A DNA stretch of 25,877 nt. Source: a virus. A program made the position numbers and the translations under genes. Position 1 is the stretch's first letter, and every line of letters begins with the position of its first letter. Below the pieces are notes generated by a model. That model saw only the letters and a list, made by a program, of their open reading frames with translations. It did not search any database and was not told the DNA's origin. Below, piece by piece: positions 336 to 24,078 of the stretch. Location: IMG/VR virus record IMGVR_UViG_3300043399_000434, positions 1 to 25,877 of that record; one strand, written 5' to 3'.

Positions 336-465
336 ACAATGCCTTTCTACATTCAATTAGCAAATCTCGCACTTTCTCATGTTCCATGAGTTCAGGATTA
401 AACAATCCGCCCGCTGACAAGTATTCGGTAATTCTGTCTACAAGTTCTTTGATTCTTTCGTTCAT
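319..465 (-). CDS. Short MNERI-type protein (48 aa)
   Basis: A 48-codon ORF starting MNERIKELVDRITEYL. Its ATG overlaps the TGA of the DNA ligase gene (ATGA), and its 3' end overlaps the next MNERI gene by 17 nt. It shares only the N-terminal MNERIxEL block with the other family members and lacks the FAELIV block and the FGV ending. It could be a truncated or diverged family member, or a translational bridge between ligase and the next gene. Support is the exact overlap arrangement and the conserved start; the short length keeps confidence moderate. Confidence 0.6.
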   Translation of the reverse strand: MNERIKELVDRITEYLSAGGLFNPELMEHEKVRDLLIECRKALYERTN

Positions 466-1817
466 TTGTCATCCCTAAAACGTACAAAGCGGGGGAACCG
501 TAGGGAGTATGTCCCATCCTGACTTTGAGTAATTACATCACACAGGATTTCAACTGTGCGACCAATAACCAAATTACGGTCACGATAAAGGCTATCTCGC
601 TCATCATCGCTAAAACCAGAACCAACGTTGACGGTAATAAACTTTCCGTCGTCTTGTCCCTCACAAACAAGCGCCCCCAGTTTACCCACATTTTTTCCAG
701 TGCCTTCGTCAACACCTACTACCTCCAGATCAACAGTAATCGTAGGCTTGTATTTCAGCCAAAACGTATTACGCTTACACTCATATGGAGCGTTTACATC
801 CTTAATCATCACACCTTCGAATCCATCATTGACCATATCCTTACAATAGCGATGAAACTGGTCAACACCTGCCCCAGTATCCAGATCAACCATAATATGG
901 GGCAGTAGCTCCACATTAGGCATTTGTTCGATAACGGGGCGCATACTCTCTAGGGTTTCAATACGCTGAGATAGTTGAGCATTCCAAAATCCTCGACGGA
1001 AATCCTCAATCGGGATAATGTCGAATACATTGAATACGCTATCTTCCGCCTGCACATTTTCCTTGCGACGGGCTTGACGCATCAGTTCCTGAAAGCTATT
1101 GCCAATAACTTCGCCATCAAGTACGAAACCATTCAGTAGGCTGCGGGCGAACACTTTGTTGACACCAGTAGAAGCCCTAACTAGTTCGCCAAATTTAGCC
1201 CTAACTTGCTCTTCAATGTGCGTAAAGTTTTCAAAGACTTTACCATTGCGGCTATAGCAGACGGTAGTAATTTCACCCGAATCATTGGGGATTACCATAA
1301 GAAGAACGCGCACGCCATCAAGCTTGGGTTCAAGCCGCTTGACACCTTTCATTTCGGGACGACCTTCGTTATTAGTCGCAAGCTGGCACCCAAACGTGGG
1401 GATTTCGTATTTGGATTTTTTACAGATTTTGTTGATAGTGATAGAAGAAATGCCTGCGCGAAGATCCCTACGAATAACAGGGGCACAGAACAGATTCCAT
1501 TCTTCACTGTCGAACCGCTCGGACATTTCCGCAACCGCATCACGGGCGGCGTTGCCAGTTAGCTTGCGCTCATATAGTTGGAGCAGCAGGTCATTGAATT
1601 CTTCCCAGGGATTCTCAGCGTCAACGATCCCCACAGTAGTCGGCACTTGCCTGACATTGAAGGTGATGAAAGGATTGTAGCAGGCATGTGCTAGCGACAG
1701 AAACACCTGTGAGTTAACGCTACCCAGCGTTGCAGCCTCAAGGGCTTGACGGATAACATCCTCTTTATGGAGGCGGCTGTCACTTTCGTTTAGTTTTTTG
1801 ATCCAAGATGCGGACAT
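462..1817 (-). CDS. lig: ATP-dependent DNA ligase (T4 gp30-like)
   Basis: Seals nicks in duplex DNA through a ligase-AMP intermediate, in phage replication, recombination and repair. The 451 aa are close to T4 ligase (487 aa). Visible nucleotidyltransferase motifs are motif I EPKLDGVR with lysine 165 as the predicted adenylated residue, motif III DGEVIG (234-239), motif IV EGVMIK (334-339) and motif V WLKYKP (353-358). An OB-fold domain follows and ends with LRFPRFVRFRDDK. The first ~130 residues match the helical DNA-binding domain position in T4-type ligases. It sits 11 nt after the 129-aa gene and is probably transcribed from the promoter at 2252-2280; a MNERI gene overlaps its stop. All catalytic motifs are intact. 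Confidence 0.95.
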   Translation of the reverse strand: MSASWIKKLNESDSRLHKEDVIRQALEAATLGSVNSQVFLSLAHACYNPFITFNVRQVPTTVGIVDAENPWEEFNDLLLQLYERKLTGNAARDAVAEMSERFDSEEWNLFCAPVIRRDLRAGISSITINKICKKSKYEIPTFGCQLATNNEGRPEMKGVKRLEPKLDGVRVLLMVIPNDSGEITTVCYSRNGKVFENFTHIEEQVRAKFGELVRASTGVNKVFARSLLNGFVLDGEVIGNSFQELMRQARRKENVQAEDSVFNVFDIIPIEDFRRGFWNAQLSQRIETLESMRPVIEQMPNVELLPHIMVDLDTGAGVDQFHRYCKDMVNDGFEGVMIKDVNAPYECKRNTFWLKYKPTITVDLEVVGVDEGTGKNVGKLGALVCEGQDDGKFITVNVGSGFSDDERDSLYRDRNLVIGRTVEILCDVITQSQDGTYSLRFPRFVRFRDDK

Positions 1818-2668: not shown

Positions 2669-2917
2669 TTAACCTTTATGTTTATAAACTGAAACTATCC
2701 ATCCTTTATCAATCCAGGTTTTTAATTTTCGACCTGTTTCAATGTTTAACCAAACTTTATTAGGCTCGCGCAAACTTATGGCAAAATTAACTATGCTTTT
2801 AGTTGAATAATAATCCATAGGGCCCCTATTTTTTAATTCATTCAATATAGTTCTTGTTTCATATGTTTTTTTAAGAGTTTTATCAAAAACTTCGTCTATG
2901 ACGAAGGGATTTACCAT
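2669..2917 (-). CDS. Hypothetical protein (82 aa)
   Basis: Not recognised. The sequence MVNPFVIDEVFDKTLKKTYETRTILNEL... looks like a small, mostly helical domain with a C-terminal strand (KTWIDKGWIVSVYKHKG), perhaps a winged-helix-like fold, but no family is clear. It lies just after the HNH gene and before the promoter of the next unit. It is more A+T-rich than its neighbours. The start has GGGTA a few bases upstream. Confidence 0.6.
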   Translation of the reverse strand: MVNPFVIDEVFDKTLKKTYETRTILNELKNRGPMDYYSTKSIVNFAISLREPNKVWLNIETGRKLKTWIDKGWIVSVYKHKG

Positions 2918-2980
2918 ATATATTACCCTTTGTGATTTGTCCTAGTAAGTTCCATATTATTTCCTTTTAAATAAATATCA

Positions 2981-3361
2981 CTAAAATTCAAACAACCCTG
3001 TATCAGCAGGAACCAACCTACGACTAGGGCTTACTTTTTTATGGTGCCCGTGTTTAAAAGTAACCAAAGTATGACACATTTTACACAAAATTTCAATATT
3101 ATTTTCCTGCCTATTATTATTATCTCCATCTATATGGTTTATATCCAATGTTACTGGATCTAAAATAAGCCTAGATACACAAACAAACCCATAATGTCCA
3201 TCTTTGTTTGAGCATCCCTGCTCCATTTTCCAAGCATCAACTTCACTTTTTCTATGCGTTCTATGCGCCGAGCAAACCTGTTTATTTTGTTTACCCCTAT
3301 GTAAACCCACTGTATTAAAACAATTTGGCATGGAGCATTTCAAGTGTATAAGAGTAGCCAT
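2981..3361 (-). CDS. HNH homing-type endonuclease (126 aa)
   Basis: A small HNH nuclease. The core is LDINHIDGDNNNRQENNIEILCKMCHTLVT (about residues 72-101), with the conserved DINHIDGD and NIEILCxxCH pattern of mobile phage HNH enzymes. N-terminal cysteines and histidines (CSMPNC...GLHRGK..VCSAH) probably bind zinc. The real start is the ATG at 3361; an upstream TTG is less likely. It is A+T-rich compared with the early genes around it and lies between two unrelated hypothetical genes, as expected of a free-standing mobile element. A weak terminator-like hairpin (3381-3402) precedes it. Confidence 0.88.
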   Translation of the reverse strand: MATLIHLKCSMPNCFNTVGLHRGKQNKQVCSAHRTHRKSEVDAWKMEQGCSNKDGHYGFVCVSRLILDPVTLDINHIDGDNNNRQENNIEILCKMCHTLVTFKHGHHKKVSPSRRLVPADTGLFEF

Positions 3362-3380
3362 ACTCAATCTTTCAACTTAT

Positions 3381-3402
3381 AAAAAAATTTAGTTTCTAAA
3401 CT
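3381..3402 (-). terminator. Weak intrinsic terminator candidate
   Basis: On the minus strand a 5-7 bp A/T-rich stem (TTTAG, loop AAA, CTAAA) is followed by seven T. It lies downstream of the 105-aa gene and just upstream of the HNH gene, which it could isolate from readthrough. The stem is short, so this is tentative. Confidence 0.35.
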
Positions 3403-3444
3403 GACTCACCTGCCAGTCTAACCTTTTAAGAGGTCACTCAAGTT

Positions 3445-3762
3445 TTATTCTCCAATCTGCTTTTCCTCAGATAAGATGTTGAACACTTCCATTTCGGCAA
3501 TAATTGACTCTGCTTCTTCAATGTTTGAAATTAGTTTCTGTAGTTTTTCTTTTGTTTCTTTGAGGGCTGCGGGCCTAATACTGCGAACAAATTGACTAGT
3601 GACAACCATTTTCTTCAGATTACATTCGGCACCGACTGCTGACATTTTGTTTATGTCGCACCCATCAGTATAGGTGGTTTTATATCCATTCAAGAAGGCA
3701 AGCTCCTCAATAGATACTTCACACAATACCCGCTGACTATCCACTTTAGCAATAACCTTCAT
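3445..3762 (-). CDS. Hypothetical protein (105 aa)
   Basis: Not recognised. N-terminal half is beta-rich (MKVIAKVDSQRVLCEVSIEELAFLNGY), the middle holds DGCDINKMSAVGAECNLKKMV, and the last 40 residues form a likely coiled helix (ALKETKEKLQKLISNIEEAESIIAEMEVF). The ATG overlaps the TGA of the upstream 125-aa gene by 4 nt, so the two are probably translationally coupled. Confidence 0.72.
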   Translation of the reverse strand: MKVIAKVDSQRVLCEVSIEELAFLNGYKTTYTDGCDINKMSAVGAECNLKKMVVTSQFVRSIRPAALKETKEKLQKLISNIEEAESIIAEMEVFNILSEEKQIGE

Positions 3763-10653: not shown

Positions 10654-11241
10654 TTATTCGGCATCCTCTTCATCATCTAAATCATTTACGCTGGTATGCT
10701 CATCGCAAGCTACGTAAATCCATCCCCCACCTCTAACTTTGCCTGGCTTACCGCATTCTTGACAAGTAACGGCTGTCATGCTTTCGGCCATTGCGATAAG
10801 CCCATCGATGTAATCATCACTGTAATTGGTATAAAATCTCAATGTGCCAAATTTTTCTTTAACCTGAACAGCTTGAATTTTAGCCATTCGGGGCTGAATC
10901 ATGGGCAGCTTACCTTGCTCTGCTTGTACGATATCATCGTCAACGTATTTGTATGTGTGTTCTGTAACATTTCCATTAAACGCATGAAACCTAAGCAATG
11001 CTAATTTATCACCTTTTAAGGCGCGCCTAATTGCGCGTTGGTGACGAAGATTTCTAGCACGTTGCTTTCGTTTCCAATCTACATGATGCTGAATTTGGTG
11101 GCATAGTTTATCCAAAATAGTATACCAACCATCTCCAGTTTCAATGCCCCAGCACATTGCCGTTTGGGTCATTGGCAATTTTCGTTGGGCAAAGATTTTA
11201 GGATACTTTTCAAAAAGTTTTCGTTCTAATTCAGGGCTCAT
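10654..11241 (-). CDS. Conserved phage protein with zinc ribbon (195 aa)
   Basis: Function unknown but a familiar conserved phage protein. It has a basic helical middle (DWKRKQRARNLRHQRAIRRALKGDK), the characteristic VQVKEKFGTLRFYTNYSDDYIDGLIAMAESM block (residues ~132-162), then a zinc site CQECGKPG...ACDEH near residues 166-187, and an acidic tail. The start ATG shares its A with the TAA stop of the MNERI gene. Last gene of the RNA-ligase operon. Confidence 0.82.
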   Translation of the reverse strand: MSPELERKLFEKYPKIFAQRKLPMTQTAMCWGIETGDGWYTILDKLCHQIQHHVDWKRKQRARNLRHQRAIRRALKGDKLALLRFHAFNGNVTEHTYKYVDDDIVQAEQGKLPMIQPRMAKIQAVQVKEKFGTLRFYTNYSDDYIDGLIAMAESMTAVTCQECGKPGKVRGGGWIYVACDEHTSVNDLDDEEDAE

Positions 11242-11441
11242 TATTCAACTCCAAAATCTTTCTTGGTTTTGTAAATGGCAAAATCAAGGTCACCCTCACA
11301 ATTTTCCATAATAGCCAAGCACTCTTTTACAATCAACTCGGCGAATCTTTCCAAAGTCTTTTCTTTAGCACCGTTGTCATCATCGTCAGGACCAACTTCC
11401 TTGATAGCCTGCTCAGAGAGTTCTTGAATTCTTTCGTTCAT
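11241..11441 (-). CDS. MNERI-family small protein (66 aa)
   Basis: Starts MNERIQELSEQA, has an acidic insert (GPDDDDNGAKEK), the family block FAELIVKEC and ends DFGVE. I chose the MNERI methionine because it overlaps the TGA of the preceding MNERI gene by 4 nt (ATGA); the longer ORF has an unrelated extension. The pair follows RNA ligase in the same way that another pair follows DNA ligase. Unknown function. Confidence 0.76.
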   Translation of the reverse strand: MNERIQELSEQAIKEVGPDDDDNGAKEKTLERFAELIVKECLAIMENCEGDLDFAIYKTKKDFGVE

Positions 11442-11686
11442 TCTTCGACTCCAAAAAAATGGTCTTCGATGTGCCGAGCAATCTGCTCCTGTGTTATCTT
11501 CTGTCCAAATTCTGTCATTCGCACAGTCCAAGCACATTCCTTGACGATCAACTCGGCGAACTTTTCCAAATCTACCGTAGCAGGATCGATATAGTTCGGG
11601 GGCGGCGGAAGGAAATATCCGCGGAAAGCCTTATAGTTAGGATGGCCGCCAGCCTGTTCGGCAAGTTCTCGAATTCGTTCGTTCAT
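11438..11686 (-). CDS. MNERI-family small protein (82 aa)
   Basis: Starts MNERIRELAEQAGGHPNYKAFRGYFLPPPPNYIDP, contains EKFAELIVKEC and ends DHFFGVEE. An ATGATG start follows the RNA-ligase stop; the second ATG has GGAGGT 5 nt upstream and matches the family start, so I chose it. The longest and most complete of the four family members here. Function unknown. Confidence 0.78.
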   Translation of the reverse strand: MNERIRELAEQAGGHPNYKAFRGYFLPPPPNYIDPATVDLEKFAELIVKECAWTVRMTEFGQKITQEQIARHIEDHFFGVEE

Positions 11687-12423
11687 CATTCACCTCCCTT
11701 TAGCAGGAACTTGTTGCTGATAGCCTTGAACGACACTTCGCGCTCGTTACACTTGAACACGATACCTTCGCGCTCCATGCCACCCCAAGTAGCCACACCT
11801 TCAGCCCACTTTAGAATATGATCCACATTACAGACTTCCAGCACTTCATCCGACTTTAGCACAGGGACGTGCTTGATGTCAAGCGATTTGGCAAGATCCC
11901 GCCGCTCTGTGGGGTTCAGGTACCTACCCATATCAAGGTCGTAAATATCGAAGAGGTAGAAGTCCTGACCCTTGATCTTGTACCGATTCTTCTGAATACC
12001 CTCACCTACAATCTCGCCTTGTAGAGCCAGATTGCGACCAGTGCTGCGAATCTTTTCAATCAGACGATTTTGGATCGCGACCCGCCACAGGCTGTTGTCG
12101 GCATTCTCTTTCAGGTTCAGGTTACGGCTGCACACTCCCGAATCATCGCCCATGACGTAAACCGTCATTGACGACCCATCAAGTTTCTCAGTGACTTCCC
12201 ACGAAAGTTTTTCAGCCTTCCATTCCTCAAGCTCGGCAGTCAGGTTCTGAATACGCTCCTGATCGGTCTTGGGGATGAAGCCAGGGAACACTCCGCGAAC
12301 CTCACCCGCAAGCTGGGCAGGAACAGGCGGCTCGTACTTGACGATGCCGAGGAGATCGGATACGTCGTCACCTTCTTCTACGTTAACTTCGGAGCCGTTT
12401 GCTAATACTAATACATATTTCAT
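11686..12423 (-). CDS. RNA ligase, Rnl5 (DraRnl) type, nucleotidyltransferase piece (245 aa)
   Basis: Catalytic part of an ATP-dependent RNA ligase. Visible motifs: I KLDGSS with lysine 80 as the predicted AMP acceptor, III LQGEIVG (134-140), IIIa FYLFDIYD, IV REGIVFK (218-224) and V SFKAISNKFLLK (231-242). The stretch LLGIVKYEPPVPAQLAGEVRGVFPGFIPKTDQERIQN is typical of the Rnl5/DRB0094 family, whose proteins are normally a single chain with an N-terminal OB domain. Here that OB domain is a separate gene at 13469-13771, with a GIY-YIG gene between. The start is the second of two ATGs with AAGGA 6 nt upstream, behind its own promoter (12446-12474). The MNERI gene overlaps its stop. The ligase may repair RNA cut by host defences. 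Confidence 0.9.
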   Translation of the reverse strand: MKYVLVLANGSEVNVEEGDDVSDLLGIVKYEPPVPAQLAGEVRGVFPGFIPKTDQERIQNLTAELEEWKAEKLSWEVTEKLDGSSMTVYVMGDDSGVCSRNLNLKENADNSLWRVAIQNRLIEKIRSTGRNLALQGEIVGEGIQKNRYKIKGQDFYLFDIYDLDMGRYLNPTERRDLAKSLDIKHVPVLKSDEVLEVCNVDHILKWAEGVATWGGMEREGIVFKCNEREVSFKAISNKFLLKGGE

Positions 12424-12445
12424 CATATGTCCTTGTTTAGTTTGT

Positions 12446-12474
12446 AGTATAACACTAACCCGATTTATTGTCAA
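12446..12474 (-). promoter_or_regulatory. Early sigma70-type promoter (RNA-ligase catalytic piece)
   Basis: TTGACA (12469-12474), 17-nt spacer beginning ATAAAT, TATACT (12446-12451), extended -10 TGT. Predicted start ~16 nt before the ligase ATG. It gives the catalytic half expression independent of the OB-domain half. Confidence 0.88.
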
Positions 12475-12517
12475 CCACGATAGTTGCAGTAGATTTCGAC
12501 AATAATTTACGTTTTAA

Positions 12518-13411
12518 TTATAACTTTACATTCTTCCAAAATAGACACCACTGGTCATCGGTCAGTGTATTATACATTACTTGATAGTTGGTTACATTTA
12601 TTTCCCGTAACCATTCTCTAAATTTTCTTAACTTTAACAAATCAACAATTTCATACATCTTCATTTTTTTAGTCTGCAAAATGTCAATTACTTGTTGTTT
12701 TTGTTCTAGAGAGAATTCAACATACCTAGGATTCTTATTGCCTTTCCAGTTGTTACTTCGTTTTGCCTTTTCTACTTTAGCAATTTCTTCTCCATACAAT
12801 TCCTCATATGTTTTACCTTGCCTTGCTACACTAATTTTTCTACTAGTCTCGGCTGTGTGCTTTTTTCCAGTGAAGGCTCCGACTTGACCTTTCTTCCATT
12901 TGGTATACTCTGGAGGACTAATGCCTTTTTCTTTATTAGTGTTGCTAATTTTCTCGGCTATGATTCTTTTTTCATCAGTAGTCTTATTTGCTTCTCTAAT
13001 ACTAGCAGCAATTGACATTTTTCTTTTTGCTGACTCAGTTTTTTTAACTCCGGTACGAGACTTCGCCTGTTGCTCCCATAACTTCTGTTTATCAACATCT
13101 CTCCAAAATTCAAGGGTATTTCCCCCATCGCCACCGGGGGTCATATTATATCCATCAGGAACCAATGTGTTTAACTTTGACACCCAAAACGTTTCTTTAT
13201 CGTTCGCTTCCTGCCTAGTCACATTGCCCAAATCTTCTAATAGAATTAATTCAAAATTTTCAATTCCGTGATAATTCATAGAATCATATAGACGGCGATT
13301 ACATTTATTTTGTGCCGCCTTCTTGTGATTTAAAAATCTGTTTTGATAATTTTTCGATTTTCCGACATAAGATTTTCCAGTAATCTTGTTTAGGATTTGA
13401 TATATCTGCAT
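12518..13411 (-). CDS. GIY-YIG homing endonuclease with NUMOD-type region (297 aa)
   Basis: N-terminal GIY-YIG nuclease domain (residues 1-~95): IYQILNKITGKSYVGKS gives the two-strand motif, arginine 26 (NRFLNHKK) is the likely catalytic Arg, and E73 in the KETFWVSKL region the metal-binding Glu; GYNMTPGGDGGN follows. The remainder has NUMOD3-like repeats (RKMSIAASIR, KISNTNKEKG, GKKHTAETSRKISVARQGK) and a C-terminal DNA-binding region. It lies exactly between the two pieces of the RNA ligase and is much more A+T-rich than them, a clear sign of insertion. A T4-type late promoter (TATAAATA) is 38 nt upstream. Free-standing, not obviously in an intron. Confidence 0.92.
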   Translation of the reverse strand: MQIYQILNKITGKSYVGKSKNYQNRFLNHKKAAQNKCNRRLYDSMNYHGIENFELILLEDLGNVTRQEANDKETFWVSKLNTLVPDGYNMTPGGDGGNTLEFWRDVDKQKLWEQQAKSRTGVKKTESAKRKMSIAASIREANKTTDEKRIIAEKISNTNKEKGISPPEYTKWKKGQVGAFTGKKHTAETSRKISVARQGKTYEELYGEEIAKVEKAKRSNNWKGNKNPRYVEFSLEQKQQVIDILQTKKMKMYEIVDLLKLRKFREWLREINVTNYQVMYNTLTDDQWCLFWKNVKL

Positions 13412-13449
13412 AATAGTGTCCCTGTAGTTTAACTGTAAATAGTCACTAT

Positions 13450-13457
13450 TATTTATA
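13450..13457 (-). promoter_or_regulatory. T4-like late promoter (TATAAATA) for GIY-YIG gene
   Basis: Exact T4 late-promoter octamer TATAAATA on the minus strand, 38 nt upstream of the GIY-YIG ATG and 11 nt after the stop of the RNA-ligase OB-domain gene. Leader carries AGGGA before the ATG. Confidence 0.65.
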
Positions 13458-13468
13458 CCACTATTCGG

Positions 13469-13771
13469 TCATTCAACTCTTTTAAGTGGGAGGAGTAATC
13501 CTTGTGAGGTGACTCCACGAAGCTTGACCGTGCGAAGTCGCTCGCCTTTGACACCATTGAACTCACGGGGCTCTTGTCCTTTACTCAGGAACGGAGCCAG
13601 TTCATGCGGCACAAAACTATCAATTTCCAAGTACACCGCAAGGTCGCCTACATTGTACTCGCCTTTTTTGACGACTACTTGCCACCCACCAACCACCGCA
13701 CATTCGATGGCATCCGCACCTTCGATAGGACGAATGTCGTCAATTTTTCTGATCGTTGCCATTTTACGCAT
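13469..13771 (-). CDS. RNA ligase, Rnl5 type, N-terminal OB-domain piece (100 aa)
   Basis: MRKMATIRKIDDIRPIEGADAIECAVVGGWQVVVKKGEYNVGDLAVYLEIDSFVP ... GERLRTVKLRGVTSQGLLLPL is the N-terminal OB-fold domain of DraRnl/DRB0094-type RNA ligases. In that family it is continuous with the nucleotidyltransferase domain; here it ends after LLLPLKRVE with a stop. The catalytic domain resumes 1,045 bp downstream at 12423. I chose the ATG at 13771 because family members begin MRKxATI; GAGG lies ~8 nt upstream. It could act in trans with the catalytic piece; whether the two still assemble is unknown. Confidence 0.88.
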   Translation of the reverse strand: MRKMATIRKIDDIRPIEGADAIECAVVGGWQVVVKKGEYNVGDLAVYLEIDSFVPHELAPFLSKGQEPREFNGVKGERLRTVKLRGVTSQGLLLPLKRVE

Positions 13772-14034: not shown

Positions 14035-14436
14035 TCAGTGGGCACGGATGTAAACACCAGCCAAGGTCCTAATAGCGTCAGCGCGGCGAACAGGATCGAT
14101 GGTAATCTTCTCTACTTTACCCAAAGCCATGCTATCGTGAAGATCCTTTGCTTCTTTTAGACCCATACCCGTTACAGTACGGATAGCCTTGATGCCCTCG
14201 ACACGGGGCACATGGGTTCGGTACATAGTCATGTCTAACTGAATAGTAAGACGGTCATTGTACTCGCCTGTCAGCATAGCAAAAAAAATCTTGCCCTTGA
14301 TGTCAGGGTCGAGTGTGCTAGCAATCGTGTCCCAAAGTTTCATACCTTCTTCACTACCATATGCCTCGGTAATGGCACGCATAAAATGCATGCCAGACCT
14401 AAGGATTTCCTGTTCATAGTCTGGTGGGATTGGCAT
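14035..14436 (-). CDS. Ribosomal L7/L12 C-terminal-domain-like protein (133 aa)
   Basis: Residues ~75-125 (VPRVEGIKAIRTVTGMGLKEAKDLHDSMALGKVEKITIDPVRRADAIRTL) follow the bL12 C-terminal pattern: K/IxxIKxVRxxTGxGLKEAKDLVxxxP..v......eea. In L12 this domain recruits translation factors. The N-terminal ~70 residues are unrelated to L12. It might bind translation GTPases, or the fold may serve another purpose; only the motif is seen. It starts 1 nt after the stop of the 135-aa gene. Similar proteins occur in other large phages. Confidence 0.75.
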   Translation of the reverse strand: MPIPPDYEQEILRSGMHFMRAITEAYGSEEGMKLWDTIASTLDPDIKGKIFFAMLTGEYNDRLTIQLDMTMYRTHVPRVEGIKAIRTVTGMGLKEAKDLHDSMALGKVEKITIDPVRRADAIRTLAGVYIRAH

Positions 14437-14854: not shown

Positions 14855-15187
14855 TCACTTAAACGTGTTCAGAGCCGGGCTGTACGCCTTGATTAGCGCA
14901 GTCTCGCGAACATGCGCTTCTTTCTTACCACGCACAACCTCAACCAGACCATACTCAAACGCCTCAGCACCATACTCGCGAAGCGACTGCGACAGAGCCC
15001 AAACCTTGTTCTCAGCCAGAGCCCGTTGATAGTGCTTCTGCATCCTACGGTGAAGAGTGCGCTTGACCGAACCACGATAGCCCAGCACAGTCAGACCGAT
15101 GTACTGCTCGCCAGTGACCCGATTCGTAATCACGTAGATAACGTGATTCCTGTCAGTCCTGCGCTTGCGTGCTTTCTCATTCATCAT
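14855..15187 (-). CDS. Small GIY-YIG nuclease domain protein (~110 aa)
   Basis: After a basic N-terminus (MMNEKARKRRTDR) comes HVIYVITNRVTGEQYIGLT, the GIY-YIG core; HRRMQKHYQRAL provides the conserved Arg region and VRETALIKAYSPALNT the Glu helix and PxxN ending. Unlike the 297-aa protein at 12518 it has no DNA-binding extension. It has the G+C content and codon style of the early genes, so it may be a resident phage protein and not a mobile one. The start is peculiar: the promoter at 15194-15222 puts the predicted transcript start on the ATG itself (15187), and no Shine-Dalgarno is present. The second ATG (15184) is an alternative. Confidence 0.82.
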   Translation of the reverse strand: MMNEKARKRRTDRNHVIYVITNRVTGEQYIGLTVLGYRGSVKRTLHRRMQKHYQRALAENKVWALSQSLREYGAEAFEYGLVEVVRGKKEAHVRETALIKAYSPALNTFK

Positions 15188-15193
15188 ACCCAT

Positions 15194-18518: not shown

Positions 18519-19934
18519 TTAAATATCGTACCTTGGATGCATAACCGTTTTCAGCATGATCCCTTCAGGTGTAAACGCAGCAGGGTCAGCACTTAGCAAG
18601 CTGGCCATGATGCTTGGACTAAACCCACTAACAAGTGCCGCACCACTCTTATCGGCAGCTACTGGCACATTGTCGCTAGAGTTTAGATTCCAAAATACGA
18701 CCTGTGGTGCATCGTATCCTGCAGCCTCATACTTGCGTTCGATCATCTGCATAGCACTATCATCGTGACGAACACACTGGTCGAACTGCATATCACTTAG
18801 GATTAGAACCATTTGCGGCATGTCGCTCTTTGGCACGTTATGCTGAACTGCCACACTAAGAATTTTTTCAAATGCCTTATTTAGGTTAGTGTTCATTTCC
18901 CACTTGCTTTTTTGCATTTGCTGGGCTTTTTGAACTACGTTACCTTTTAGTGTAACTAGTGATGGGCTACCACTGAAAGTCAAGAATGTATCCTTGAATA
19001 CACCTAGATTTTTGTCAGCTAGGTACAGACCCAAACCAACTGCAACATCCAAGCAGGTCACACTTGTGTTTTTACCTGCAGGGCAAGTCATAGAACCCGA
19101 TACATCAACTAGGGGCAGAATACTAGCATTTCCTACGTAGTTTGGTAGCGCGTCCCACTGTGCCACGATATGGTCTAGCTCAGTTTTAGTGAACTGCGTC
19201 ATAGTCCAACCATTCAACACTCCCTTGATAACATCATGTGGGAAGATTGCACCAGCATTGACCTTAACTGACTTGTCACCGCTAACTAGCTTTGCTACGT
19301 ACTCCGCAAACTTTGTAGTATTGCGTTGAAAAGCTTTCTTGTAGATACGGCTAGCCTGTGAAGGTACATGGCTGAACTCAATGTTGTCCCAGTCACGGGC
19401 ACACATTTGCTGTTCAACAACCTTGGTCATGCTGACAAGTTGCTTACGGTACTGCTTTGGTGTCATACCGAAAAACTGACGGATTTCAGCCGCAACTTTA
19501 CCCTTGCGTGGGGTCCACTTTGCAGCTAGACCATTCTTGTTGCGTAGATGGTCGCCTAGTAGGCTGTATGCCTTAGCTTTCAATTCTGGTGAATTGAAAA
19601 CAAACAAATCATCAAAGCGACCTAGTTCAGGTACTTTGTTGATTAGCTTTGCGGCGCTTTCTGGATCCATTTTTTCTAGATGGACTAGAATGTCACGGAA
19701 CAGTTGGCGTTCGCCAGCGCCATTGCGTACATCGCGCGCCCATAGTGCCACCCGCATTGCCAGTTCTTTGTTTTCTACAAAGGCACTAGTGAATTGTGGG
19801 ATGATGTCTTTCCCACGTGAGGCACCGATGTTGTAGAACAAATCTACAACAGCGTTAGCCGTTGACTTACGAGCTACCATACCATTTTGGGTACGTTGTT
19901 CTTGGTTTTGTACTGCTTTTAAAAATGCGTTCAT
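18519..19934 (-). CDS. Ro60-like DUF2828/vWA protein (471 aa)
   Basis: N-terminal ~265 residues follow the DUF2828 pattern: STANAVVDLFYNIGASR, ALWARDVRNGAGERQLFRDIL, VPELGRFDDL, GLAAKWTPRKGK, MTPKQYRKQL, MCARDWDNIEFSHVPSQASRIYKKAF and VNAGAIFPHDVI. This helical-repeat plus vWA layout is shared with TROVE (Ro60) proteins. The C-terminal vWA domain carries an intact MIDAS start DVSGS (277-281) and LILSDMQFDQ. Ro proteins bind Y RNAs and misfolded RNA; whether this one does is inference. AAGGAG precedes the ATG. Behind a ~520-nt leader with a structured RNA unit (20333-20458). Confidence 0.88.
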   Translation of the reverse strand: MNAFLKAVQNQEQRTQNGMVARKSTANAVVDLFYNIGASRGKDIIPQFTSAFVENKELAMRVALWARDVRNGAGERQLFRDILVHLEKMDPESAAKLINKVPELGRFDDLFVFNSPELKAKAYSLLGDHLRNKNGLAAKWTPRKGKVAAEIRQFFGMTPKQYRKQLVSMTKVVEQQMCARDWDNIEFSHVPSQASRIYKKAFQRNTTKFAEYVAKLVSGDKSVKVNAGAIFPHDVIKGVLNGWTMTQFTKTELDHIVAQWDALPNYVGNASILPLVDVSGSMTCPAGKNTSVTCLDVAVGLGLYLADKNLGVFKDTFLTFSGSPSLVTLKGNVVQKAQQMQKSKWEMNTNLNKAFEKILSVAVQHNVPKSDMPQMVLILSDMQFDQCVRHDDSAMQMIERKYEAAGYDAPQVVFWNLNSSDNVPVAADKSGAALVSGFSPSIMASLLSADPAAFTPEGIMLKTVMHPRYDI

Positions 19935-22189: not shown

Positions 22190-23197
22190 TCAACGATATG
22201 CTTCACTATACTTGCTTTGCCAAACACTTTCAAAATCTAATTCTTCTTGTTTGACCCAGCCTTTTTTATTTATCTTACCTATCACCCAACTATCTAAAAC
22301 TGACATTACACCTCCCGCAGTGGTCCTCTGAATAGCGGTAATACCCCGAGCGGCTTCAATAATTTTACCATATTGGCGAATCTGATATTTGTTGTCTCTA
22401 TATCCTTTTACATTGATAAGGATAAAAACAAAATCGTTATTTGTTTGGGGAACATGATTATTAAAAAGTTTTACAAAGGTATCAAAATTTTCTTTCATAC
22501 CCAAATCATCTTTTAAAAAGCGCATCATAGACCAATGACCCGGATAGCGCAATGTTTTATAGTTTACATTCTCTGCCCTACCTAACCAACTATCAGGTAA
22601 CGATCCTATTCCACCACTGGTGTTTGCAGCCTCTAATCTAGCACCATTAAGCATTACTTCTTCTATATCCGCTAGTGGATCTAAATATACTAATTTACCC
22701 TCCTTGATAGCTGGGCATGGATGAATGTATTCATTAATCAATCCTTCAGTATTCCATGTCCTATAATAACCCATGTGATTATTAGCGTTTTCTGGTAACG
22801 CACCCACACGAATTTCAATATCTTTTACTTTTTCGAACTGAATTGCCATTTTATTAGCAATAATACTTACCATACCTGGAGCTAAACCACATTGTGTGAC
22901 AAAAGCCGCGTTGTTTAGTGTTTTGACAAAATTTGTAACATCGACACTTTCAGTTAAATCGAAATAATCTACACCTTCTTGGTTACAAATTTCAGCGATT
23001 TTAATATTTAAGAAGAAGGGAGTACTGGCTAGTACACCATCTACTGATTTTATGATCGTTGTTAGTAACTCTGTATTACTTAGATCATGGCCGTTAGACA
23101 AGTCATAACCTGTAACAGCAAATCTATCATCCTGTTTAAGCGTATTAAACACACTCATGCCAATATGGCCTAATCCTAAAATTGCTAATTTCTTCAT
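22190..23197 (-). CDS. Saccharopine-dehydrogenase-family enzyme (335 aa)
   Basis: NAD(P)-dependent oxidoreductase of the saccharopine dehydrogenase family. Residues 1-~120 form the Rossmann domain: KKLAILGLGHIGMSVFNTL (GxGxxG), then VDGVLASTPFFLN and VDYFDLTES. The catalytic domain has QCGLAPGMVSIIANKMA, EIRVGALPENANNHMGYYRTWNTEGLINEY, and EAANTSGGIGSLPDSW, all typical of the LYS9-like group. The natural substrate could be a lysine/polyamine-type amino acid; it is not fixed by sequence. Full-looking catalytic domain, no truncation. It lies in a tRNA cluster between tRNA-Pro and the MSGKGSS gene, an auxiliary metabolic gene. Confidence 0.86.
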   Translation of the reverse strand: MKKLAILGLGHIGMSVFNTLKQDDRFAVTGYDLSNGHDLSNTELLTTIIKSVDGVLASTPFFLNIKIAEICNQEGVDYFDLTESVDVTNFVKTLNNAAFVTQCGLAPGMVSIIANKMAIQFEKVKDIEIRVGALPENANNHMGYYRTWNTEGLINEYIHPCPAIKEGKLVYLDPLADIEEVMLNGARLEAANTSGGIGSLPDSWLGRAENVNYKTLRYPGHWSMMRFLKDDLGMKENFDTFVKLFNNHVPQTNNDFVFILINVKGYRDNKYQIRQYGKIIEAARGITAIQRTTAGGVMSVLDSWVIGKINKKGWVKQEELDFESVWQSKYSEAYR

Positions 23198-23216: not shown

Positions 23217-23292
23217 TGGTCTCTCTGCCTGGATTTGAACCAGGACCGATGCGCCCCAAACGCATCACGCTGCCAGATTACGCCACAGAGAG
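23217..23292 (-). tRNA. tRNA-Pro(TGG), CCA encoded
   Basis: Acceptor CTCTCTG/CAGAGAG, anticodon arm ATGCG-TTTGGGG-CGCAT, T-arm CCTGG-TTCAAAT-CCAGG; discriminator A, then CCA. Its first 15 nt lie within the 3' end of the nuclease gene 23278-24078 on the same strand. It reads CCA proline codons. Confidence 0.92.
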
Positions 23293-24078
23293 TTTTTGAT
23301 TGACGAATTCCTTAATAATACTTATTTCACCTACAATCAACGTGATAATTTTTGATACCTGCTCTATTTTAAATCTGTCTCTATGCATACCATATGGATT
23401 TTTGGGATCTAAATAAACATTAAAATCAGGTAGGTAAAAATCAGGATAATAAAATCTAATTTTTTTATTTCCGTCAATCCATTTAATGGGGTCTGGTCTT
23501 ATCCAGTTAACCTTATGTTCAATTAGAAACTCTGCTATTTCTACTTCCCATGACGATTCTAATAAAACTTCTTTATTTTGATTTGGGTTAAAAACCCAAA
23601 AGAGTTTACGCCTACCATTTGGATATTTTCTTTCGCCTACTTTGGCTTGGATCAGACAAAATTCTGAACCGCATGTACTTCTTTTTCTCAGCACATAATC
23701 CACAGTTGTGATAATACCACAAATCCTACAAGTATGTGTCACGGGACTATGTTTTGGTCTTATAGGAGGAACAGCATATGGATTTTTTCTTCCCTTTAAT
23801 GCTACACTAACTTTTTTCTTAGAAGATTCAGTTTGTTTCCTACCAGTATTGTTAAAACTGGCAGCACATGATTTAGAACAAAATAAATTTTTTCTTTTTT
23901 CAAATTTTAAAAGATCATTACAACCTTTACAAATTGATGGAGCCAATAAATATTGTTCTTTACGCGCAAATAATTTTTGTGTCTGAACTTCATTAGCTTT
24001 GCTTATGGCTTTCAAACAATTTTCTTTATGTTTTCCCGATTTGTAGTAATCGGTATTTTTCATATTTACTGAAGCCAT
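23278..24078 (-). CDS. PD-(D/E)XK-type homing endonuclease (266 aa)
   Basis: Same family as 21052-21819. A zinc-finger-like CKGCNDLL...LFCSKSCAASFNN (residues ~50-77), a NUMOD-like helix (KKKVSVALKGRKNP), a second Cys cluster (CRICG...CGSEFC), then the nuclease core ESSWEVEIAEFLIEHKVNWIRP, YYPDFYLPDFNVYLDPKNPYG and FKIEQVSKIITLIV. The frame is intact. Its stop lies 15 nt inside tRNA-Pro, so its last codons are tRNA sequence. It sits between omega and tRNA-Pro, more A+T-rich than phage genes elsewhere. The start has no clear ribosome-binding site. Confidence 0.86.
   Translation of the reverse strand: MASVNMKNTDYYKSGKHKENCLKAISKANEVQTQKLFARKEQYLLAPSICKGCNDLLKFEKRKNLFCSKSCAASFNNTGRKQTESSKKKVSVALKGRKNPYAVPPIRPKHSPVTHTCRICGIITTVDYVLRKRSTCGSEFCLIQAKVGERKYPNGRRKLFWVFNPNQNKEVLLESSWEVEIAEFLIEHKVNWIRPDPIKWIDGNKKIRFYYPDFYLPDFNVYLDPKNPYGMHRDRFKIEQVSKIITLIVGEISIIKEFVNQKLSVA

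Follow-up and report, generated by a model that had tools for sequence, protein, structure and literature searches.

Rnl5-Type RNA Ligase Genes Split at the Linker Between Their Domains, with a GIY-YIG Endonuclease Gene Between the Halves, in Nine Groups of Phage Contigs

Organization of the Split Ligase Locus

The window (the entire 25,877-nt stretch of viral DNA analyzed here) encodes an Rnl5-type RNA ligase as two separate genes, one for an OB-fold piece and one for a catalytic nucleotidyltransferase piece, with the gene of a GIY-YIG homing endonuclease lying between them (Table 1). These three minus-strand genes had been recognized in a first-pass annotation made from the sequence alone, with which the Pfam matches (PF21189, PF01541, and PF09414) agree, as does the measured distance of 1,045 bp from the OB stop codon to the catalytic ATG. 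Apart from the endonuclease frame, just 57 and 94 nt separate the two ligase pieces. The OB piece has its own SD sequence (GAGGAAAT) and its own start codon, and its stop codon falls directly after an LLLPLKRVE tail. The endonuclease combines a GIY-YIG catalytic domain with a separate DNA-binding C-terminal part; its N- and C-terminal parts are conserved and its middle is variable.

Table 1. Features of the split ligase locus in the window
Feature	Positions	Strand	Details
OB-fold piece, Rnl5-type RNA ligase	13469..13771	-	100 aa; Pfam PF21189 "PHA02142 OB-fold," E = 5e-31
Last six OB codons and stop, apparently cassette-borne	13469..13489	-	Nucleotide identity with L101 and L102
TATAAATA late-promoter-like box, then 9-bp perfect inverted repeat around endonuclease SD	13403..13457	-	
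GIY-YIG homing endonuclease	12518..13411	-	297 aa; PF01541, E = 4e-8; PHROG homing endonuclease, E = 2e-30
Sigma-70-type promoter of catalytic piece	12446..12474	-	TTGACA-17-TATACT, extended TG
First 13 catalytic-piece codons (MKYVLVLANGSEV), probably cassette-borne	12385..12423	-	Nucleotide identity with L101 and L102
Catalytic nucleotidyltransferase piece	11686..12423	-	245 aa; PF09414 RNA_ligase, E = 2e-33; SD AAGGA

Both ligase pieces match, consecutively, the protein family phrog_968 (398 positions, of which the OB piece covers 7 to 110 and the catalytic piece covers 120 to 392) and the Naegleria ligase NgrRnl (PDB 5cot; residues 4 to 101 and 109 to 336, respectively). By these alignments, the two pieces are successive, nonoverlapping parts of a protein from a single family, which bears out the earlier proposal that they derive from a single-chain enzyme; they do not map to different proteins. 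An OB module of the PHA02142/NgrRnl type is present, on a polypeptide of its own, and the nucleotidyltransferase domain has its KxDG motif along with those downstream (TEKLDGSS, SRN, QGE, EGIVFK, and SFKAISNKFLLK are all found in the window piece); no single chain in the window contains both modules. The full set of motifs likewise occurs in the catalytic pieces of L101 and L102, the nearest split relatives of the window. Another ligase of the same phage, a DNA ligase, is encoded at window positions 462 to 1817.

A single Rnl5-type ligase frame with a short variable linker occurs in 165 of the 183 loci (duplicates counted) that queries for the ligase or the endonuclease had by then retrieved. 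The closest intact relative, L026, has an unbroken ligase frame of 342 aa, whose OB and catalytic segments are 80% and 76% identical to those of the window and lie a single residue apart. It belongs to a collinear sister phage (upstream genes and one downstream gene are 63 to 86% identical, in the same order) and its ligase lacks the GIY-YIG gene, so that it represents the empty site and supplies the comparison that the first-pass annotation had called for. The predicted structure of the L026 ligase (pLDDT 91, pTM 0.88) superimposes on that of NgrRnl (6vte; TM 0.89, 49% identity) and is of low confidence (pLDDT ~54) only at residues 101 to 110 and at the C-terminal end. On this alignment and model, the window break is located in the disordered linker between the domains, where it had originally been placed.

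Within the nine codons before the break, the motif LRGQxSQGL is near-universal in the intact ligases close to that of the window. LRGQxSQG is missing from all eight split OB pieces that could be read but is kept in 107 of 127 intact ligases, and its loss may either mark the target of the endonuclease or represent a change that the split permitted; as a sign of target-site immunity, we treat it as a lead only, since the motif is also missing from most of the distant intact phages. Three other candidates were set aside: the DNA pattern CATAAATAATAGTGACTA gave one additional match, in an unrelated tail-protein-like gene (L181); an HNH gene of phage phiPMW, annotated under a ligase match, is positioned after an intact ligase and not within it; and phage phiM12, which was among the catalytic matches and missing from the listed OB matches, has an intact ligase.

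Both inserted and severed genes had been credited with promoters of their own. For the catalytic piece this holds as a sequence match: its promoter matches the sigma-70 type at 11 of 12 positions, with the extended TG, a homologous promoter (TTGACA-17-TATAAT) occurs in L101 and L102, and the ribosome-binding site is present as well. For the late promoter of the endonuclease gene, the box itself stands, but TATAAATA is no commoner than chance in the window (3 occurrences versus 2.5 expected) and is therefore not relied on as a late promoter; both L101 and L102 have CATAAATA.

Better supported, in these comparisons of sequence and folding, is a hairpin at the endonuclease start, formed by the inverted repeat, whose 3′ arm contains the AUG and whose loop contains the SD sequence. 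Repeats of equal length arise in only 6 to 8 of 2,000 shuffles of each of the window, L101, and L102 sequences (8 for the window), and the arms are unchanged in L101 and L102, with variation confined to the loop. The folding energy of the region is unusual in L101 and L102 (z of about −2.5) and not unusual in the window (z of −0.6); among more diverged relatives, the endonuclease start lies at or in a hairpin in L186 (z of −1.9) and L193 (z of −5.1), and the same comparison yielded no hairpin at the start in L191. A modeled transcript beginning just downstream of the TATAAATA box lacks the 5′ arm and is unstructured. Control by a hairpin that hides the start has been described for I-TevI, segB, and the mobE gene of phage Aeh1 (PMC2988022).

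Recurrence of the Split and Movement of the Cassette

Endonucleases of the same GIY-YIG family lie between OB and catalytic pieces in nine groups of contigs (the window plus eight). The nearest split relatives, L101 (a 117-kb contig) and L102, were found with an endonuclease query, and further splits occur in L186-L188/L190 (the L190 contig piece stops inside the endonuclease), L191, L192, L193-L195, and, found later, L200 and L201. An endonuclease is present in every split found, most of which were retrieved with the endonuclease query. The layout recurs in contigs of several metagenomes and hence is not an accident of assembly. Among the GIY-YIG relatives fetched, we recognized no split ligase in contigs of bacterial or archaeal genomes.

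The split loci vary in detail. In both L186 and L191, the catalytic gene begins before the endonuclease gene has ended; in L192, one of the nine split loci, the OB piece is frameshifted; and L101 and L102 contain, between endonuclease and catalytic gene, an additional unrelated small frame that has no counterpart at this place in the window. These frames differ from each other (L101:3861-4148 and L102:2264-2521) and are equivalently positioned, between the endonuclease and the promoter; that of L102 belongs to a small-frame family (MNERI-ELAEQA...FAELIV) with several copies beside ligase genes, including window positions 11438-11689, 11241-11537, and 108-356, as well as L026:6029-8276. At another locus (L175:2773-4702), an intact RNA ligase and a 34-residue OB-like remnant are separated by another, different GIY-YIG gene (2914-3630), which perhaps marks an independent endonuclease event at the beginning of the same ligase gene.

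The ligase pieces and the endonucleases differ in their degrees of relatedness. The window endonuclease is 84% and 79% identical to its L101 and L102 copies, versus ~60% for the catalytic pieces of the same loci, and at fourfold-degenerate sites identity between the window and L101 is 51% in the GIY-YIG gene and 35% in the OB and catalytic pieces; GC content is 35% in the GIY-YIG gene and 49 to 51% in the ligase pieces. A tree built from 119 catalytic domains places the window piece as sister to the intact L026 (SH-aLRT 97), and L101 and L102 among other intact ligases. A single clade is rejected for the three nearest split catalytic pieces (AU test, p = 0.0049) and, after more intact phages were added, for all nine (p = 7.1e-5). 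The OB tree (96 columns) does not reject a single clade of three splits (p = 0.34), and in it L101 and L102 have a common OB lineage; L186, L191, and L192 form a clade in which all sampled members are split. Since the split catalytic pieces do not form one clade and the nearest cassettes are 79 to 84% identical, the cassette has evidently moved between diverged ligase genes: members of one cassette family occupy this linker in ligase lineages that have diverged from each other, and evolutionary evidence argues for its spread into unoccupied copies of the site.

How far the cassette extends is suggested by nucleotide identity at its two boundaries. Upstream, the final six codons of the window OB piece, together with the stop, match L101 at 18 of 21 nucleotides and L102 at 19 of 21, versus 43/90 and 48/90 in the stretch directly before them (Fisher p = 0.0015 and 0.0013, respectively). 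Downstream, the first 13 catalytic codons match at 34/39 nucleotides in L101 and 33/39 in L102, versus 62% and 60% beyond (p = 0.0014 and 0.0028), and over these codons the intact sister L026 differs from the window. Conservation of the cassette is uneven, as the stretch from the endonuclease stop to the promoter differs among the three loci. As judged from these identities, the apparent cargo of the cassette comprises the stop codon of the OB piece, the hairpin at the endonuclease start, the sigma-70-type promoter, and, for the downstream half, the start with the ~13 codons that open it. The original interpretation, a ligase divided by an endonuclease gene, is supported and is extended by the recurrence of the split, the movement of the cassette, and a junction, promoter, and start that travel with it.

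Fate of the Two Halves and a Proposed Mechanism

At the linker, one gene has become two with nearly all conserved residues kept: among columns shared by 95% or more of the intact ligases, the window retains 38 of 39 for the OB piece and, for the catalytic piece, 66 of 68 (39 and 66 in L026). The terminal branches of split catalytic pieces are no longer than those of their intact sisters (0.15 versus 0.23), and dN/dS is ~0.08 to 0.11 in the all-split clade, a value to be read with its saturated dS and possible sampling bias (members of this clade came from the endonuclease query, and intact members are perhaps unsampled). A dN/dS comparison of the window, L101, and L102 as a test of selection after the split was discarded, since the three catalytic pieces involved are not sisters. 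Given the conserved columns, branch lengths, and dN/dS, both pieces look to be under selection.

We consider it probable that these loci arose by homing-driven fission of the RNA ligase gene, whose products would work together in trans, the reassembly being inferred from sequence and from analogy to other split phage enzymes. The endonuclease would recognize the conserved end of the OB-coding region in intact genes of coinfecting phages and cut there, upon which the cassette would be copied into the cut gene along with short flanking tracts; in being copied with its flanks, it would bring the OB stop and the promoter, ribosome-binding site, start, and first codons of the catalytic piece. Because the hairpin would hide the endonuclease start on read-through transcripts, the endonuclease would be made mainly from a transcript that begins within the hairpin. 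Made separately, the two ligase polypeptides would then associate noncovalently into a working nick-sealing ligase, much as in the ribonucleotide reductase of phage Aeh1; the split nrdA and gene 43 enzymes both stay functional (PMC2988022). A bolder version, which we offer tentatively though as a serious possibility, is that the cassette is a dedicated, self-sufficient gene-fission element, specialized for the linker of one enzyme family, with parts of its own (a stop codon ending the upstream half, an endonuclease gated by a hairpin, and, for the downstream half, a promoter together with a ribosome-binding site, a start, and the first codons), such that each invasion would yield a working two-subunit RNA ligase.

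Some observations could be accommodated by other histories. A single ancestral split, with the intervening intact genes restored by recombination, would fit the exclusively split clade of L186, L191, and L192 and the common OB lineage of L101 and L102; this is quite unlikely in view of the rejection of one clade of split catalytic pieces and of nearest cassettes that are more alike than their host ligases. Least credible of the alternatives is that a single-chain ligase is still produced, through a self-splicing intron or split inteins. GIY-YIG endonucleases like I-TevI are often encoded within introns, and the matches include I-TevI in td, but an Rfam scan, both at the gathering score and up to E = 10, matched no intron family, and too few nucleotides lie outside the endonuclease frame to hold a group I core that does not overlap it. 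Moreover, the catalytic piece has its own promoter, SD sequence, and start (which in L186 and L191 overlaps the endonuclease end), and the piece opens with a short replaced linker, the OB piece ending four residues past LLLPL, with no extension resembling an intein half. Intron, intein, and assembly artifact are all unsupported by the sequences, in which two frames appear to replace one without splicing.

As to the activity of the products, the frameshifted OB piece of L192 and the presence of a second ligase (the DNA ligase noted above) would fit inactivation by the split and decay of both pieces; we regard this as very unlikely, given that frames are open and motifs intact in the other cases examined, that branches are not lengthened, and that dN/dS is ~0.1 in the all-split clade. 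Somewhat less remote, though still unlikely, is that the catalytic piece, with its own promoter and start codon and every active-site motif, acts alone, leaving the OB piece free for another role or as a tolerated leftover. Against this, the OB piece is conserved almost as in intact relatives and has its own ribosome-binding site, and in the Deinococcus enzyme the N-terminal module is required for adenylylation and for sealing of 5′-phosphate nicks, though not for the last step. Human C12orf29, a family relative without an OB domain, does ligate RNA ends, such that the OB piece need not be a partner, but nick sealing by this protein was not seen (PMC9931718). Joint action of the two halves in trans remains our preferred reading.

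Comparable Systems and Neighboring Genes

Genes broken into pieces by homing endonucleases are a known phenomenon; new here are the enzyme targeted, the repeated splitting at a single domain boundary, and a cassette that apparently carries the expression parts of the severed half. The nearest parallel is nrdA/mobE of Aeromonas phage Aeh1, in which, according to a review (PMC2988022; Friedrich et al. 2007, cited therein), an endonuclease gene splits a phage enzyme gene without an intron or intein, the endonuclease start is hidden by a hairpin, and the products stay functional. As described there, the Aeh1 case differs in that the endonuclease is of the HNH type, the enzyme is a ribonucleotide reductase, and the break falls in a functionally critical region, whereas here a GIY-YIG endonuclease interrupts an RNA ligase at a domain linker in many lineages. 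In gene 43/seg43(25) of Aeromonas phage 25, a GIY-YIG (Seg-type) gene likewise lies between enzyme halves, which copurify with polymerase activity (PMC2988022); that split is possibly older than its endonuclease, since phage 44RR has the split without one (PMC2988022), whereas every split found here, mostly by way of the endonuclease query, contains the endonuclease. The T4 topoisomerase genes 39/60 also have an endonuclease gene, mobA, between parts of an enzyme that is elsewhere single chain; it is of the HNH type, the enzyme is another one, and recurrence is not reported in the review (PMC2988022). I-TevI of the T4 td intron shares the GIY-YIG N-terminal domain, a late-promoter-like box, and a start-sequestering hairpin (PMC2988022) but resides within a self-splicing intron, none of which was found here.

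On the ligase side, NgrRnl, DraRnl of Deinococcus, and phrog_968 resemble the window proteins in sequence, fold, domain order, and catalytic motifs; known Rnl5-type members are one polypeptide, whereas here there are two. A literature search, with most subscription journals outside its scope, found no paper on a split RNA ligase of this sort. Previously known gene-splitting homing endonucleases amount to a handful of isolated cases, which raise the question of how an enzyme can be broken by a selfish gene with no harm to its host; here, splits at the same boundary in the window and in at least eight other groups of contigs have apparently not destroyed the enzyme. With one target split repeatedly, collinear unsplit relatives, and a cassette that seemingly brings downstream regulatory parts, gene fission becomes testable as a repeated natural experiment. 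Furthermore, naturally split RNA ligases open the OB and catalytic domains to study, and possibly to use, as separate proteins.

Several other genes of the window merit mention. A second, short GIY-YIG gene lies near the ligase (14855-15193); it is 86% identical in the collinear L026 and thus is probably older than the ligase split. A NUMOD3/endonuclease-like gene (23278-24078) is situated in the tRNA-rich end of the window, and a saccharopine-dehydrogenase-like protein (22190-23197; PF16653, E = 4e-19) is unusual in a phage. In addition, the window encodes a protein (14035-14436) with a segment resembling the C terminus of ribosomal protein L7/L12 (PF00542, E = 3e-6) and a DUF2828/DUF7788 protein (18519-19934), an RNA-binding protein according to PHROGs, which is 85% identical in L026.
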